A stretch of 64,000 nt of DNA from Ptychodera flava. Taxonomy: Eukaryota; Hemichordata; Enteropneusta; Ptychoderidae. The first letter of the stretch is position 1, and each line of letters opens with the position of its first letter. Below, in pieces: positions 23,071 through 53,294 of this stretch. Position numbers and translations under genes: made by a program. Under the pieces are notes generated by a model. The model worked only from the letters and a program-made list of their open reading frames with translations, did no database searches and was not told the DNA's origin. The stretch lies in contig NC_091930.1 in assembly GCF_041260155.1 (NCBI RefSeq), positions 23,593,237 to 23,657,236 of the forward strand, written 5' to 3'.

Positions 23071-23218
23071 CTAGATTCGTTTATTTGTTTCTGTACCAGT
23101 TGATCGTATTCTTCTTACCTTCTCATCATTGGCCATTTTCTGTAGAATCGCCGTCAGTTCGGAAAAGGTGGGTCTTTTCTCCGGATTTTTGTCCCAACAA
23201 CTCAGGATTGTAGAATAA
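23071..23218 (-). CDS. Kinase receptor last exon
   Basis: 148 nt. [15 protein letters not shown] closes the kinase domain, followed by about 20 residues and TAG at 23071-23073. A GTAAGA inside could be a donor to a further exon that I cannot see, so the C-terminus is provisional. Confidence 0.7.
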
Positions 23219-52600: not shown

Positions 52601-53294
52601 GCATAACCTTTAAAAAATCGGTTTTCCCTATGTTTTGTCTCAATACTCCAAAATATCTTACTCAAACTTGCTGGAATGCAAGCTGTCACAATGCTCTTCC
52701 AAAGTTTGTCTCAGATTTTTTATATCTTGCTTTGTTTTTTGGAGCACAATTTTAAAGAAATCAACTAGGATTAAATTTACTGCCCTGGAAGTTTTTCCGG
52801 CATAAAAACTGTTAAGAAGGTTTAAAAAATTCTGAGACACACTTTTAAAGACCCTTAGGACAGCTTGCACTCACATAAATTTCAGCCGCATATCTTAAAG
52901 CATTGAAACAAAACATAGGGAAAACCGATTTTTGAAAGGTTATGCAAATTACCTGTCACGTGATAGTTATGTAAACAGTGGTGACACTATGGTAACCAGA
53001 ATGTTCCCCTATATCTAAACTTTCCGAAAATATACAATTTACAGGGTTCTGAGCTTCTTAAACACTACAGAATTGTTAGTTTAAAATGGTCAATTTCTTG
53101 TCTTGGAACCTTAACACTACGCTTTCTTCCAAACAATGTCATAATTCCATATCCCACTTTTTCAGGATAAATCAAAAGGTGATATAACGTATGCAGACCT
53201 GGATTTGCCACCCACTGGTTCTGAGCAGCAGCCAAAGAGGATGCCTGCAGAAGAGATGATTCAATATGCCTCAATCCAGATTCCGGAAAAGTAA
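31598..53294 (+). CDS. Receptor B: four-Ig transmembrane receptor with long ITIM tail
   Basis: Ten-exon model: 31598-31649, 41696-42001, 44997-45278, 45979-46260, 46530-46832, 47745-47870, 48623-48638, 48787-48899, 51769-52235, 53166-53294. The sum is 2076 nt, open, 691 aa. Order: signal peptide 1-17, Ig1 18-119, Ig2 120-213, Ig3 214-307, Ig4 308-408, uncharged membrane helix about 414-437, tail of about 254 residues. Tail: SSYEHV; five tyrosines of the type YAVS, YAIS or YAES in Lys-rich repeats; then ITYADL and IQYASI, 25 residues apart. SSYEHV, ITYADL and IQYASI fit the ITIM consensus; ITYADL is the form seen in vertebrate SIGLEC-type receptors. A tandem ITIM pair of this spacing is what SHP-type phosphatases bind in vertebrates; the partner here is inferred. 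It is divergent from the kinase receptor. The AATAAA at 53407-53412 may be its polyadenylation signal. Intron 1 is 10 kb and transposon-filled. Confidence 0.85.
32424..32475. repeat. Short inverted repeat
   Basis: AGACGTATATCA...TGATATACGTCT type hairpin around TAAATTT. Confidence 0.5.
32552..33655. mobile_element. Possible non-autonomous DNA element with inverted ends
   Basis: AAGGTCCACTTTCG near 32553 is inverted at about 33640-33653. A longer inverted block, 32659-32692 against 33587-33620, reads CCAGTGTTCACTGCCT on one side. Spacing of the blocks differs on the two sides, so the borders are uncertain. The interior shows no transposase. Confidence 0.45.
33781..34058 (-). mobile_element. 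LTR of the Ty3/gypsy fossil
   Basis: About 278 bp on the minus strand, TG at 34058 to CA at 33781, directly preceded by a purine-rich tract as expected for a 3' LTR. Broken element. Confidence 0.55.
34635..35085 (-). mobile_element. LINE 3' fragment, 5'-truncated
   Basis: The open stretch at 35042-34800 ends with the LRPPVARTQRYANSFIPQAV type C-terminus common in CR1/L2-like LINE proteins. A 3' region follows, ending in a (TATCT)-type tail at about 34636-34672. Inserted in the gypsy fossil. Confidence 0.65.
35237..35364. mobile_element. Palindromic element, family P, single arm
   Basis: TCTAAAACCGGGGTCGATTATATACATGGTC to GGCCGACTTTGTCCC, matching one arm of 43342-43665. Confidence 0.6.
36802..36885. 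repeat. Hairpin with GTAATCACCACACTT ends
   Basis: 15-bp near-perfect inverted ends about 55 bp apart; small fold-back of unknown origin. Confidence 0.5.
37140..37460. repeat. Fold-back repeat F, copy 1
   Basis: 37328-37372 and 37412-37455 are long imperfect inverted arms (GGTTATTACGAAAATACC ends) around a GC-rich centre; 37140-37320 is also shared with copy 2 at 47160-47480. A perfect GCCGTACGGAAC hairpin sits just upstream at about 37068-37100. Confidence 0.6.
37700..38960 (+). mobile_element. 5'-truncated non-LTR retrotransposon (LINE)
   Basis: Reverse-transcriptase blocks in order: YSKAFDKIDH near 37730, AGVPQGTKLGPILF near 37890, FMDDTT (variant of YADD) near 37985, then the LINE C-terminal region at 38291-38716. 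The frame is interrupted at least twice. 3' end is T-rich with a repeated TTTTATTTTA pattern. Endonuclease part is absent. Not functional. Confidence 0.8.
39176..39960 (-). mobile_element. 5'-truncated LINE, C-terminal end only
   Basis: Minus-strand open stretch 39951-39529 (140 aa) with RIRPFLPTSARRQFYNCFILPYFDYCLS, the end region of a LINE reverse transcriptase. The 3' tail is an (ATT)n repeat at 39175-39202. A different family from the one at 37.7 kb. Confidence 0.75.
40050..40720. repeat. Dispersed repeat, copy 2 (first copy 2640-3760)
   Basis: Shares TAGACGTGGTGGC...GCCACCACGTCTA and the following 120 bp with copy 1, plus the block at about 40565-40720. Confidence 0.6.
41696..42001 (+). 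CDS. Receptor B exon 2, Ig1
   Basis: 306 nt, phase 1-1, acceptor [30 protein letters not shown]. Very close to the opposite-strand kinase-receptor Ig1 exon, with similarity continuing into the intron. Confidence 0.88.
42554..44012. mobile_element. DNA transposon remnant with terminal inverted repeats
   Basis: Ends are inverted copies of about 36 bp: AGCCGTCATTATTTACGGC then GGGGTCGGAAGAA on the left, and AGCCTTCATTATTTACGGC then GGGGTCGGAGGAA inverted on the right. Subterminal G-rich GAGAGGGGG stretches. No transposase frame. The family P palindrome at 43342-43665 is nested inside. Lies in receptor B intron 2. Confidence 0.75.
43342..43665. mobile_element. Palindromic element, family P, full two-arm copy
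   Basis: Arms of about 140 bp run from GGGGCAAAGTCGACC to GGCCGACTTTGTCCC in opposite orientation around a CGATAATGAATT palindrome core. Nested in the 42554-44012 transposon. Confidence 0.75.
44997..45278 (+). CDS. Receptor B exon 3, Ig2
   Basis: 282 nt, phase 1-1. LTC, LVWFKDG, FHCQLQHYTLPPWKW; open, unlike the receptor A copy. Extra Cys pair (PKC, ISCE). Confidence 0.88.
45979..46260 (+). CDS. Receptor B exon 4, Ig3
   Basis: 282 nt, phase 1-1, donor GTGAGT. Nearly identical to receptor A exon 4, including its upstream intron. Confidence 0.88.
46530..46832 (+). CDS. Receptor B exon 5, Ig4
   Basis: 303 nt, phase 1-1. DLVCTVDGFPTP, VIWFD, GIYTCEASN. Several N-glycosylation sequons shared with receptor A. 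Confidence 0.88.
47160..47480. repeat. Fold-back repeat F, decayed copy
   Basis: Aligns with 37140-37460 (GATGCACTCG, GCGATATTTTCGTAATAA) with many differences. In receptor B between the Ig4 and membrane exons. Confidence 0.5.
47745..47870 (+). CDS. Receptor B exon 6, transmembrane
   Basis: 126 nt, phase 1-1. Long Val/Ile-rich helix without charge, then YRCERSSEKR. Confidence 0.85.
48073..48541. mobile_element. Fold-back element with about 145-bp inverted arms
   Basis: 48073-48220 and about 48400-48541 are reverse complements with scattered differences (AGTGGCCAC, CAAGTAG, TTGTAAATGAGAG). In receptor B between the membrane exon and the micro-exon. Confidence 0.75.
48623..48638 (+). CDS. Receptor B exon 7, 16-nt micro-exon
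   Basis: Acceptor TTCCACCAG, donor GTAAGA, phase 1 to 2. Same size and phase as receptor A exon 7. Confidence 0.7.
48787..48899 (+). CDS. Receptor B exon 8, ITIM SSYEHV
   Basis: 113 nt, phase 2 to 1, acceptor CTTTTCCAG, donor GTAAGC. Acidic, with SSYEHV as a consensus ITIM. Confidence 0.8.
49226..49318. repeat. (ATATC)n satellite, copy 1
   Basis: Pentanucleotide array of about 90 bp in a receptor B tail intron. Confidence 0.95.
49579..49628 (+). other. Possible alternative terminal or poison exon of receptor B
   Basis: Good acceptor (CACTTTTCAG). In the incoming phase it adds 16 residues and stops at TAG 49626-49628. A GTGAGT donor lies 24 nt past the stop. Inclusion would give a tail with only SSYEHV. 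Confidence 0.35.
50409..50678. mobile_element. MITE with 31-bp terminal inverted repeats
   Basis: GGCTGCATTCACAAACACCT at the left is inverted at the right, 270 bp in all, with G-rich subterminal sequence. No coding capacity. Confidence 0.75.
51590..51677. repeat. (ATATC)n satellite, copy 2
   Basis: About 88 bp, ending 91 bp before the acceptor of receptor B exon 9. Confidence 0.95.
51769..52235 (+). CDS. Receptor B exon 9, tyrosine-repeat tail
   Basis: 467 nt, phase 1 to 0. Two imperfect repeats of about 56 residues, each with a TYxVSAKQKK-type and an LYAxSSK-type tyrosine, rich in Lys, Ser and Asp. These tyrosines have Ser at +3, so they are not ITIMs. Donor GTGATA. Confidence 0.82.
52435..53110. 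mobile_element. MITE with long inverted arms and TTAA flanks
   Basis: GGTTCCAAGACAAGAAATT at the left is inverted at the right. Arms of about 200 bp. TTAA lies directly outside both ends (52431-52434, 53111-53114), the target of piggyBac- and Kolobok-type elements. In the intron between the last two receptor B exons. Confidence 0.8.
53166..53294 (+). CDS. Receptor B last exon, tandem ITIMs
   Basis: Acceptor CTTTTTCAG, phase 0, 42 codons and TAA. ITYADL and IQYASI, 25 residues apart. Confidence 0.88.
   Translation, partial: DKSKGDITYADLDLPPTGSEQQPKRMPAEEMIQYASIQIPEK

Follow-up and report, generated by a model that had tools for sequence, protein, structure and literature searches.

Paired receptors usually set an arm with an immunoreceptor tyrosine-based inhibitory motif (ITIM) against an arm that is linked to an adaptor or carries an immunoreceptor tyrosine-based activation motif (ITAM). 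Human SIGLEC11 and SIGLEC16 lie head-to-head, about 9 kb apart, and in primates these opposed inhibitory and activating immunoglobulin (Ig) receptors have ectodomain exons that are homogenised by gene conversion (PMC5701461). In the CEACAM pairs of Xenopus, conversion is confined to the N exon, and putative ITIM/ITAM-type pairs are oppositely transcribed (PMC5112662). Among invertebrate deuterostomes, the fester and fester co-receptor genes of Botryllus form clusters of paired Ig receptors with ITIM or hemITAM co-receptor tails (PMC12065747), and amphioxus reportedly has an inhibitory tyrosine-phosphorylated receptor that acts with Lck (PMC8211107), so that such signalling is not vertebrate-only. 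FGFR1-4 and FGFRL1 combine kinase receptors with a kinase-less sister of similar ectodomain, which has a YxxLYxxI tail and binds SHP-1 (PMC12026108). Here, we describe a related arrangement in the acorn worm Ptychodera flava, in a 64,000-nucleotide stretch of contig NC_091930.1 (positions 23,593,237 to 23,657,236; the window, to which all coordinates refer). It holds a minus-strand receptor gene with a kinase-type intracellular domain (M2) head-to-head with a plus-strand receptor gene with an ITIM tail (P2), together forming unit 2, and a homologous unit 1 (M1 and P1).

The acorn-worm locus resembles the SIGLEC11/SIGLEC16 and Xenopus pairs in its opposed genes and in the likely exchange of an ectodomain exon between them, and the Botryllus clusters in being a probable group of paired Ig receptors in an invertebrate deuterostome. 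It differs from all three in the partner of the ITIM arm, which here is a predicted receptor pseudokinase. The activating arm of SIGLEC11/SIGLEC16 uses an ITAM adaptor, and we claim no orthology with it; the Xenopus partner has an ITAM or ITAM-like tail, with no kinase domain described in the available text; and in the main text of the Botryllus report the terms ‘tyrosine kinase’ and ‘head-to-head’ have 0 occurrences and no kinase-domain arm is described. Unlike FGFR1-4 and FGFRL1, the acorn-worm ITIM and kinase arms stand head-to-head and appear to have exchanged Ig1. The head-to-head layout itself is not new, because SIGLEC11 and SIGLEC16 are already so arranged. An earlier note on this DNA, made from the sequence alone, had called a kinase-type opposing arm unfamiliar from the literature, and it is for such a receptor-(pseudo)kinase arm that we, too, found no report. 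In an open-access library, covered by titles and the starts of abstracts, with most subscription papers and all of bioRxiv outside this scope, we found no hemichordate ITIM receptors and no paired receptor armed with a receptor tyrosine kinase (RTK) or pseudokinase.

The start codons of M2 and P2 are separated by 795 bp, which agrees with the 0.8 kb of the earlier note, and the region between them (30803..31597) is a putative bidirectional promoter with homologous blocks in unit 1. As the note had also held, homologous Ig1 and Ig2 domains are present in both arms, as is a third Ig domain, with 71/91, 45/93, and 28/93 identical amino acids, respectively. The last comparison is between minus-arm Ig4 (M2) and plus-arm Ig3 (P2), and BLAST matched minus Ig4 to plus Ig3 with E-values of 4e-17 (P1) and 1e-16 (P2). 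The intracellular ends are indeed unlike, the minus arm ending in a kinase domain and the plus arm in a tail with three ITIM-consensus tyrosines. The head-to-head receptor observation is sound, with the corrections given below. Judged from sequence, the locus probably represents a system of paired receptors in an invertebrate, with a receptor pseudokinase as part of its chassis, in which the arms would share a ligand and send an inhibitory and a non-inhibitory signal; we give this reading about an even chance.

P2 comprised ten exons (31598-53294) in a single open frame from ATG to stop, encoding four Ig domains, a transmembrane segment (TM), and the ITIM tail. At the motif level, the tail had three matches to the ITIM consensus: SSYEHV in a cytoplasmic exon at 48787..48899, and ITYADL and IQYASI in the last exon, which ends with the stop (53166..53294). 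Shuffled P2 tails contained a mean of 0.24 such motifs, and at least three were found in 0.16% of 20,000 shuffles (P = 0.0016). The spacing and wording of the last two motifs presumably resemble those of the SIRP-alpha tail.

M2 comprised a signal exon, four Ig exons, a TM exon, and seven kinase exons down to 23119, with GT-AG introns and phases that match except at Ig1. A protein search retrieved P0001 from NCBI (‘fibroblast growth factor receptor 3-like [Ptychodera flava]’) at 97% over the entire M2 query, and a search of the window for exact copies of the 726 overlapping 10-residue words of P0001 gave 622 hits, on the minus strand from 30321 to 22727 where printed, so that the window matches P. 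flava. This gene model joins the Ig and kinase exons; had they never been joined, the earlier note would have counted its reading as refuted. The model differs from our reading in beginning mid-Ig1, past a frameshift, in a marginally later border of the TM exon, and in two more exons, one juxtamembrane (26671..26712) and one C-terminal and coding (22724..22765), the latter with a TAA at 22724. The kinase gene, which the note had ended at 23071, actually has coding sequence to about 22724. The kinase of unit 1 lies off the window. A second P. flava protein, P0002 (‘Cad96Ca-like’, 471 aa), begins with MDVQ, like the end of the Ig2 exon, and then passes directly into Ig4; because this start matches the Ig2-exon end and the skipping of Ig3 is what a lost acceptor in M1 predicts, P0002 is likely the kinase product of M1.

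The M2 kinase domain, which is of FGFR/Cad96Ca-like type, matched PF07714 at 8e-89, and a PDB sequence search returned an EGFR chain with two kinase copies as the top match and FGFR1 and RET as the best single domains. In an alignment of ten receptor kinases, HRN replaced HRD in P0001, P0002, and two Stylophora proteins, and the others had HRD. The catalytic-loop pattern was matched in 170 of 258 fetched proteins (the other 88, without a match, are uncounted), with D in 164, N in 5, and V in 1, the last being a false match to another stretch. The M2 catalytic-loop exon (24546..24668) reads VHRNLAARN and keeps DFG, and the VAIK lysine and the alpha-C glutamate (exon 25916..26026) are also kept. 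The juxtamembrane and Gly-loop exon (26177..26393) has a degraded loop, LADGAFARF, in which P0001 has lost two of three glycines, and P0002 retains an intact LGEGAIGRF. The M2 kinase is accordingly a predicted pseudokinase, with the catalytic aspartate gone in both P. flava copies, and a catalytically normal kinase arm was rejected on HRN. What the earlier note had called a receptor tyrosine kinase does have an RTK-type domain behind one TM; an opposition of enzymatic kinase and ITIM is unsupported, because HRN is present in both copies and M2 also lacks the two Gly-loop glycines. Among the best 120 of 1056 matches, the highest kinase identity outside P. flava (57%) was to an FGFR-like protein of Glandiceps talaboti, P0147, which has Ig domains like the plus arm (32% over 177 aa). 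Since P0147, unlike M2, retains HRD and a complete Gly loop, the loss of the catalytic aspartate is most simply derived in the Ptychodera lineage. P0186 and P0254 of Stylophora pistillata, FGFR/Ret-like coral models that perhaps represent one gene, also have HRN, another loss of the catalytic aspartate.

The juxtamembrane segment of P0001 carries an ITAM-like pair of tandem tyrosines, YTSI-x9-YMKL, and P0147 has YMSL-x9-YARL, with the same spacing, at the corresponding place. Among the 119 RTK-like proteins in which a TM, a Gly loop, and a catalytic loop could all be recognised, this YxxI/L-x9 tandem pattern was present in seven, namely P0001, P0147, and five coral proteins from Montipora and Acropora (P0193, P0201, P0206, P0214, and P0229). 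Shuffling of the segments gave P values of 0.009 (P0001) and 0.003 (P0147), which are post hoc because the motif was noticed first. Alternatively, the kinase arm may be weakly active or an allosteric partner in the style of HER3/HER2 or FLOR-1/OLD-1, with a signal independent of the juxtamembrane tyrosines. Consistent with this are the three retained kinase elements and a fold model whose confidence is high except in the insert and the activation loop, as well as two precedents: HER3 (ErbB3), a weakly active receptor pseudokinase with the same HRD-to-HRN change, and the C. elegans OLD-1/FLOR-1 pair, an RTK/pseudokinase pair in immune recognition (PMC10523662). For neither precedent does the available text describe a divergent ITIM partner with a common ectodomain. 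The loss of two of three M2 Gly-loop glycines and the want of an identified active partner argue the other way, and we regard this as a serious possibility that falls short of even.

The paired-receptor reading is strengthened by the history of Ig1. Informative sites were scored across M1, M2, P1, and P2, with columns gapped in any of the four rows excluded. In the Ig2 exon, 64 sites grouped the sequences by arm, none by unit, and one across both; in the Ig1 exon (n = 19), the corresponding numbers were 3, 13, and 3. The arm and unit counts of the two exons differed by Fisher's test at 1.8e-12, the 13/19 unit sites of Ig1 exceeded a one-third expectation (P = 0.0019), and eight consecutive informative Ig1 sites (alignment columns 377-429) all grouped by unit. 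Protein trees agreed, joining M2 with P2 in Ig1 (support 97.5/94) and separating M1+M2 (94.1/97) from P1+P2 (97.1/94) in Ig2. Cross-arm synonymous divergence (dS) was 0.24-0.66 in Ig1 and saturated in all four such pairs of Ig2; for minus Ig4 against plus Ig3 it was about 2. By these comparisons the opposing arms have exchanged Ig1 and not Ig2, which is clear for unit 2; the pattern there is, by analogy, the one that gene conversion leaves in the paired receptors of vertebrates. A wider claim of exchange ‘within each unit’ was dropped, as identities, dS, and the tree make it clear in unit 2 only. Nine of the 13 unit sites lie on strand C, C', or F or in the stretch from E to F when placed on a model of the related P. 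flava protein P0122, whose mean pLDDT is 78.6 and whose Ig1 is just 32-38% identical to the Ig1 of M1, M2, P1, and P2.

The points that weigh against the paired-receptor reading begin with Ig1. Only synonymous change is seen at two of the 13 unit sites (209 and 422), and the majority of the remainder alter an amino acid, so that the similarity may be due to convergence. The flanks of Ig1 are without a unit signal (arm/unit/cross 6/6/5 upstream and 7/2/3 downstream). M1 Ig1 is no nearer to P1 (233/291 bases, dS 0.40) than to P2 (237/291, dS 0.24), M1 and P1 stay apart in the tree of Ig1, and an exchange in unit 2 alone suffices because the 13 unit sites amount to one split. Ig1 might then have moved between the arms a single time, around the unit duplication, its later likeness being inherited and not the product of repeated conversion. 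In keeping with this, dS in Ig1 is of similar size in all six pairs (0.24-0.66), even with same-arm pairs included, the lowest being M1-P2 and not a within-unit pair; the intron downstream of Ig1 is similar in all four genes; and the exchange in unit 1 is not resolved by the tree. A move before the duplication predicts grouping by arm, yet Ig1 groups by unit at 13/19 sites, including the run of eight, and the tree unites M2 and P2 with the support given above, which makes a single move rather unlikely in our view.

Further points of the same kind concern the genes themselves. A single base is missing from M2 Ig1 near 30311-30330, which shifts the frame; this may be a sequencing error, or this haplotype, at least, may be without a working minus arm, for which SIGLEC16P, an arm disabled by a loss of 4 bp from exon 2, offers a parallel (PMC5701461). 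In P1, the frame of Ig2 is interrupted by a TAA at 9280, and in M1 the homologous acceptors of Ig2 and Ig3 are without their AG, each of these domains also lacking one cysteine. Because of these lesions neither unit has both arms intact here, and only P2 is clean. The P2 structure in turn rests on reading of the DNA, without an outside gene model, because none of the 23 proteins returned by a search with P2 exceeds 45% identity. The M2 TM has no charged residue for an ITAM adaptor, and adaptor pairing through a charged TM was rejected for the minus arm on this ground. In P0002 the tandem reads YKTM-x9-YMKL, the first motif having M for I/L. The polarity of the M2 motif cannot be read from sequence alone, because SVYMKL in M2 also fits the ITIM consensus.

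Such lesions would be expected if the locus is decaying, that is, if P2 or a paralogue elsewhere works, the kinase arm is a relic, and HRN, the Gly loop, and the frameshift record a stepwise loss. Besides the M2 frameshift, the P1 stop, the M1 acceptor and cysteine losses, and the degraded M2 Gly loop, it can be noted that the P0001 and P0002 models both begin inside the ectodomain, with no signal peptide. Decay is harder to reconcile with the intact splice sites and phases of the M2 exons past Ig1, and with HRN being common to two kinases without stops that are identical at 263/316 residues. Copies free of selection would be expected to retain 56-46% identity at the dS measured between the Ig exons of M1 and M2 (0.26-0.36), and all copies simulated at those distances bore a stop; across d of 0.15-0.48, 99.8-100% of unselected copies carried one. 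This argument takes its dS from the Ig exons and would be weaker had a later exchange affected the kinase exons. Overall, we consider decay of the locus unlikely.

Still less probable is that these are adhesion or developmental receptors of nectin/Kirrel/FGFR type, with the Ig1 exchange a functionless by-product of inverted repeats: fold searches with the P0122 model returned generic Ig relatives only (MAG, DIP-theta, SYG-2, SIRP-alpha, and nectin-like 4) and the sequence relatives include NCAM, DSCAM, DCC, and Kirrel, yet the exchange lies in the distal domain while Ig2 too is an inverted repeat between the arms, and several related genes, decayed copies, and three ITIMs would better suit immune or allorecognition families.

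The earlier note had stated that the whole unit occurs twice. This holds only in part. Colinear DNA blocks link 0.5-11.2 kb with 28.9-46.9 kb, and DNA homology bears out the repetition for the Ig exons, the inter-start region (70-80% identity there), and the plus-arm exons, the kinase of unit 1 being beyond the window. Extra sequence in unit 1 widens the start-to-start gap to 2110 bp. On the minus strand, M1 has a signal exon (2259..2319) and an Ig1 exon (1741..2034) homologous to those of M2, and remnants of Ig2 (1070..1326) and Ig3 (634..887) with approximate limits, each with the lost acceptor AG and cysteine. On the plus strand, P1 has exons homologous to P2 for the signal peptide (4430..4481), Ig1 (7833..8129), and Ig2 (9230..9517, with the TAA), followed within 10375..11218 by Ig3 (10375-10656) and Ig4 (10916-11218), in a block with about 92% DNA identity to P2, and by a TM exon (11993..12121) read from the DNA. 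A candidate last exon (16310..16465) contains VGYYEV and SEYQSL, plus TQYASL; exons linking it to the TM exon were looked for between 12.1 and 16.3 kb and not found. The plus-arm Ig3-Ig4 regions, 10132-11238 and 45734-46852, were 92% identical in DNA including introns, and the Ig1 and Ig2 blocks about 71%, a contrast that reflects mosaic exchange between the units.

Exon borders were fixed by reading the sequence, splice-site scoring serving as a first guide only. The P2 signal-peptide exon (31598..31649) is conserved in unit 1 at 4430-4481; an alternative in which the plus gene begins at 41 kb, leaving an 11-kb gap, was rejected, since the conserved signal exon at 31598 gives the 795 bp. It is followed, all on the plus strand, by the Ig1 exon (41711..42001), which groups with M2 Ig1, and, by DNA reading, by exons for Ig2 (44997..45278), Ig3 (45979..46260), and Ig4 (46530..46832), a TM exon (47745..47870), and a 16-base cytoplasmic micro-exon (48623..48638). 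Between the SSYEHV exon and the last exon lies a cytoplasmic exon with repeated tyrosines (51769..52235), the ninth, whose acceptor, TTTTTAAATAAAG, is weak. A short exon-like piece with a stop lies behind a possible acceptor at 49587-49628 on the plus strand, as judged by eye, and could provide a P2 tail without the last two ITIMs. The region 51394-55464 is repeated at 59949-64000 as a 4-kb tandem duplication of 95% identity that includes the P2 tail exons, the copy at 60328-60794 having 8 nucleotide and 7 amino acid changes and that at 61727-61855 being identical; these copies may be alternative tails or belong to another gene.

M2 exons, all on the minus strand, include the signal-peptide exon (30742..30802, with the ATG at 30802), conserved in unit 1 at 2259-2319, and a V-type Ig1 exon (30126..30415), in which P0001 starts after the shift, at 30321. 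The Ig2 (29415..29711) and Ig3 (28958..29221) exons were supported by both the DNA reading and P0001, and the Ig4 exon (27494..27775) is the homologue of plus-arm Ig3. The TM exon lies at 27175..27320. Further kinase exons were placed at 25091..25284, which bears the insert (by alignment), and, by DNA reading, at 23841..23952, 23544..23640, and 23119..23218. By eye, M2 Ig2 and the preceding intron each contain a copy of a stretch of about 20 bases (about 29640 and 29765, minus strand), lengthening part of Ig2 relative to M1. The kinase gene was judged not to include a minus-strand block near 40 kb, which matches 2.6-2.8 kb, is unused by the NCBI model, and was taken as a repeat.

The window as a whole is intron-bearing animal DNA with a GC content of 33-40% in 4-kb steps. 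The first intron of P2 (32-41 kb) contains retroelement remnants, among them an RNase H-like open reading frame (ORF) at 34376-34879 on the minus strand (PF17917, 7e-12) and a minus-strand ORF at 39532-39957 that looks like a reverse transcriptase by eye and has no Pfam match. In a Pfam scan of ten window ORFs, matches were found in one, the retroelement RNase H.

The family extends beyond the two units. P0121, P0122, and P0123 are further P. flava receptors of the M2/P2 family that are encoded outside the window; P0121 has a mid-protein TM with a further Ig1 behind it, and so resembles a merger of two genes. The ‘CEACAM5-like’ entry among the P2 matches is NCBI's name for P0121, and the 23 matches, which comprise P. 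flava proteins, NCAM1, VCAM1, and one unnamed protein, gave no orthology of P2 to vertebrate SIRP, Siglec, or CEACAM. The Ig2 of P0029, a ‘CD22-like, partial’ protein of Saccoglossus kowalevskii, was 56% identical to M2 Ig2, so that the ectodomain family reaches another acorn worm.

Under the paired-receptor reading, both arms would bind the same ligand through Ig1, and on engagement a Src-type kinase would phosphorylate both tails. The ITIM arm, P2, would recruit SHP-type phosphatases, and the pseudokinase arm, M2, would give a non-inhibitory signal, for which either SH2 proteins would dock on its juxtamembrane tyrosines or M2 would, like HER3, join an active kinase. The two ligand-binding tips would be kept matched by gene conversion while they change. 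As to origin, we tentatively propose, as a doubtful route, that in hemichordates an active Ig-bearing RTK was turned into the non-inhibitory arm, its enzyme silenced, its signalling shifted to an ancestral ITAM-like motif, and its ligand tip matched to that of its ITIM partner by conversion between the two genes that diverge from a 0.8-kb promoter. The earlier reading of the locus as a paired receptor gains from the unit-2 Ig1 exchange and loses its enzymatic opposition of kinase and ITIM.

In Glandiceps, a relative with an active-looking kinase is available for comparison with this receptor pseudokinase. If the origin proposed above is true, paired-receptor logic would have arisen independently outside vertebrates, on an RTK chassis. 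An RTK-derived partner in an invertebrate deuterostome, with the opposed genes and distal-exon conversion that mark the known pairs, would show that this logic reaches beyond the ITAM machinery. The acorn-worm pair would then be an outgroup for testing the origin of paired-receptor logic.

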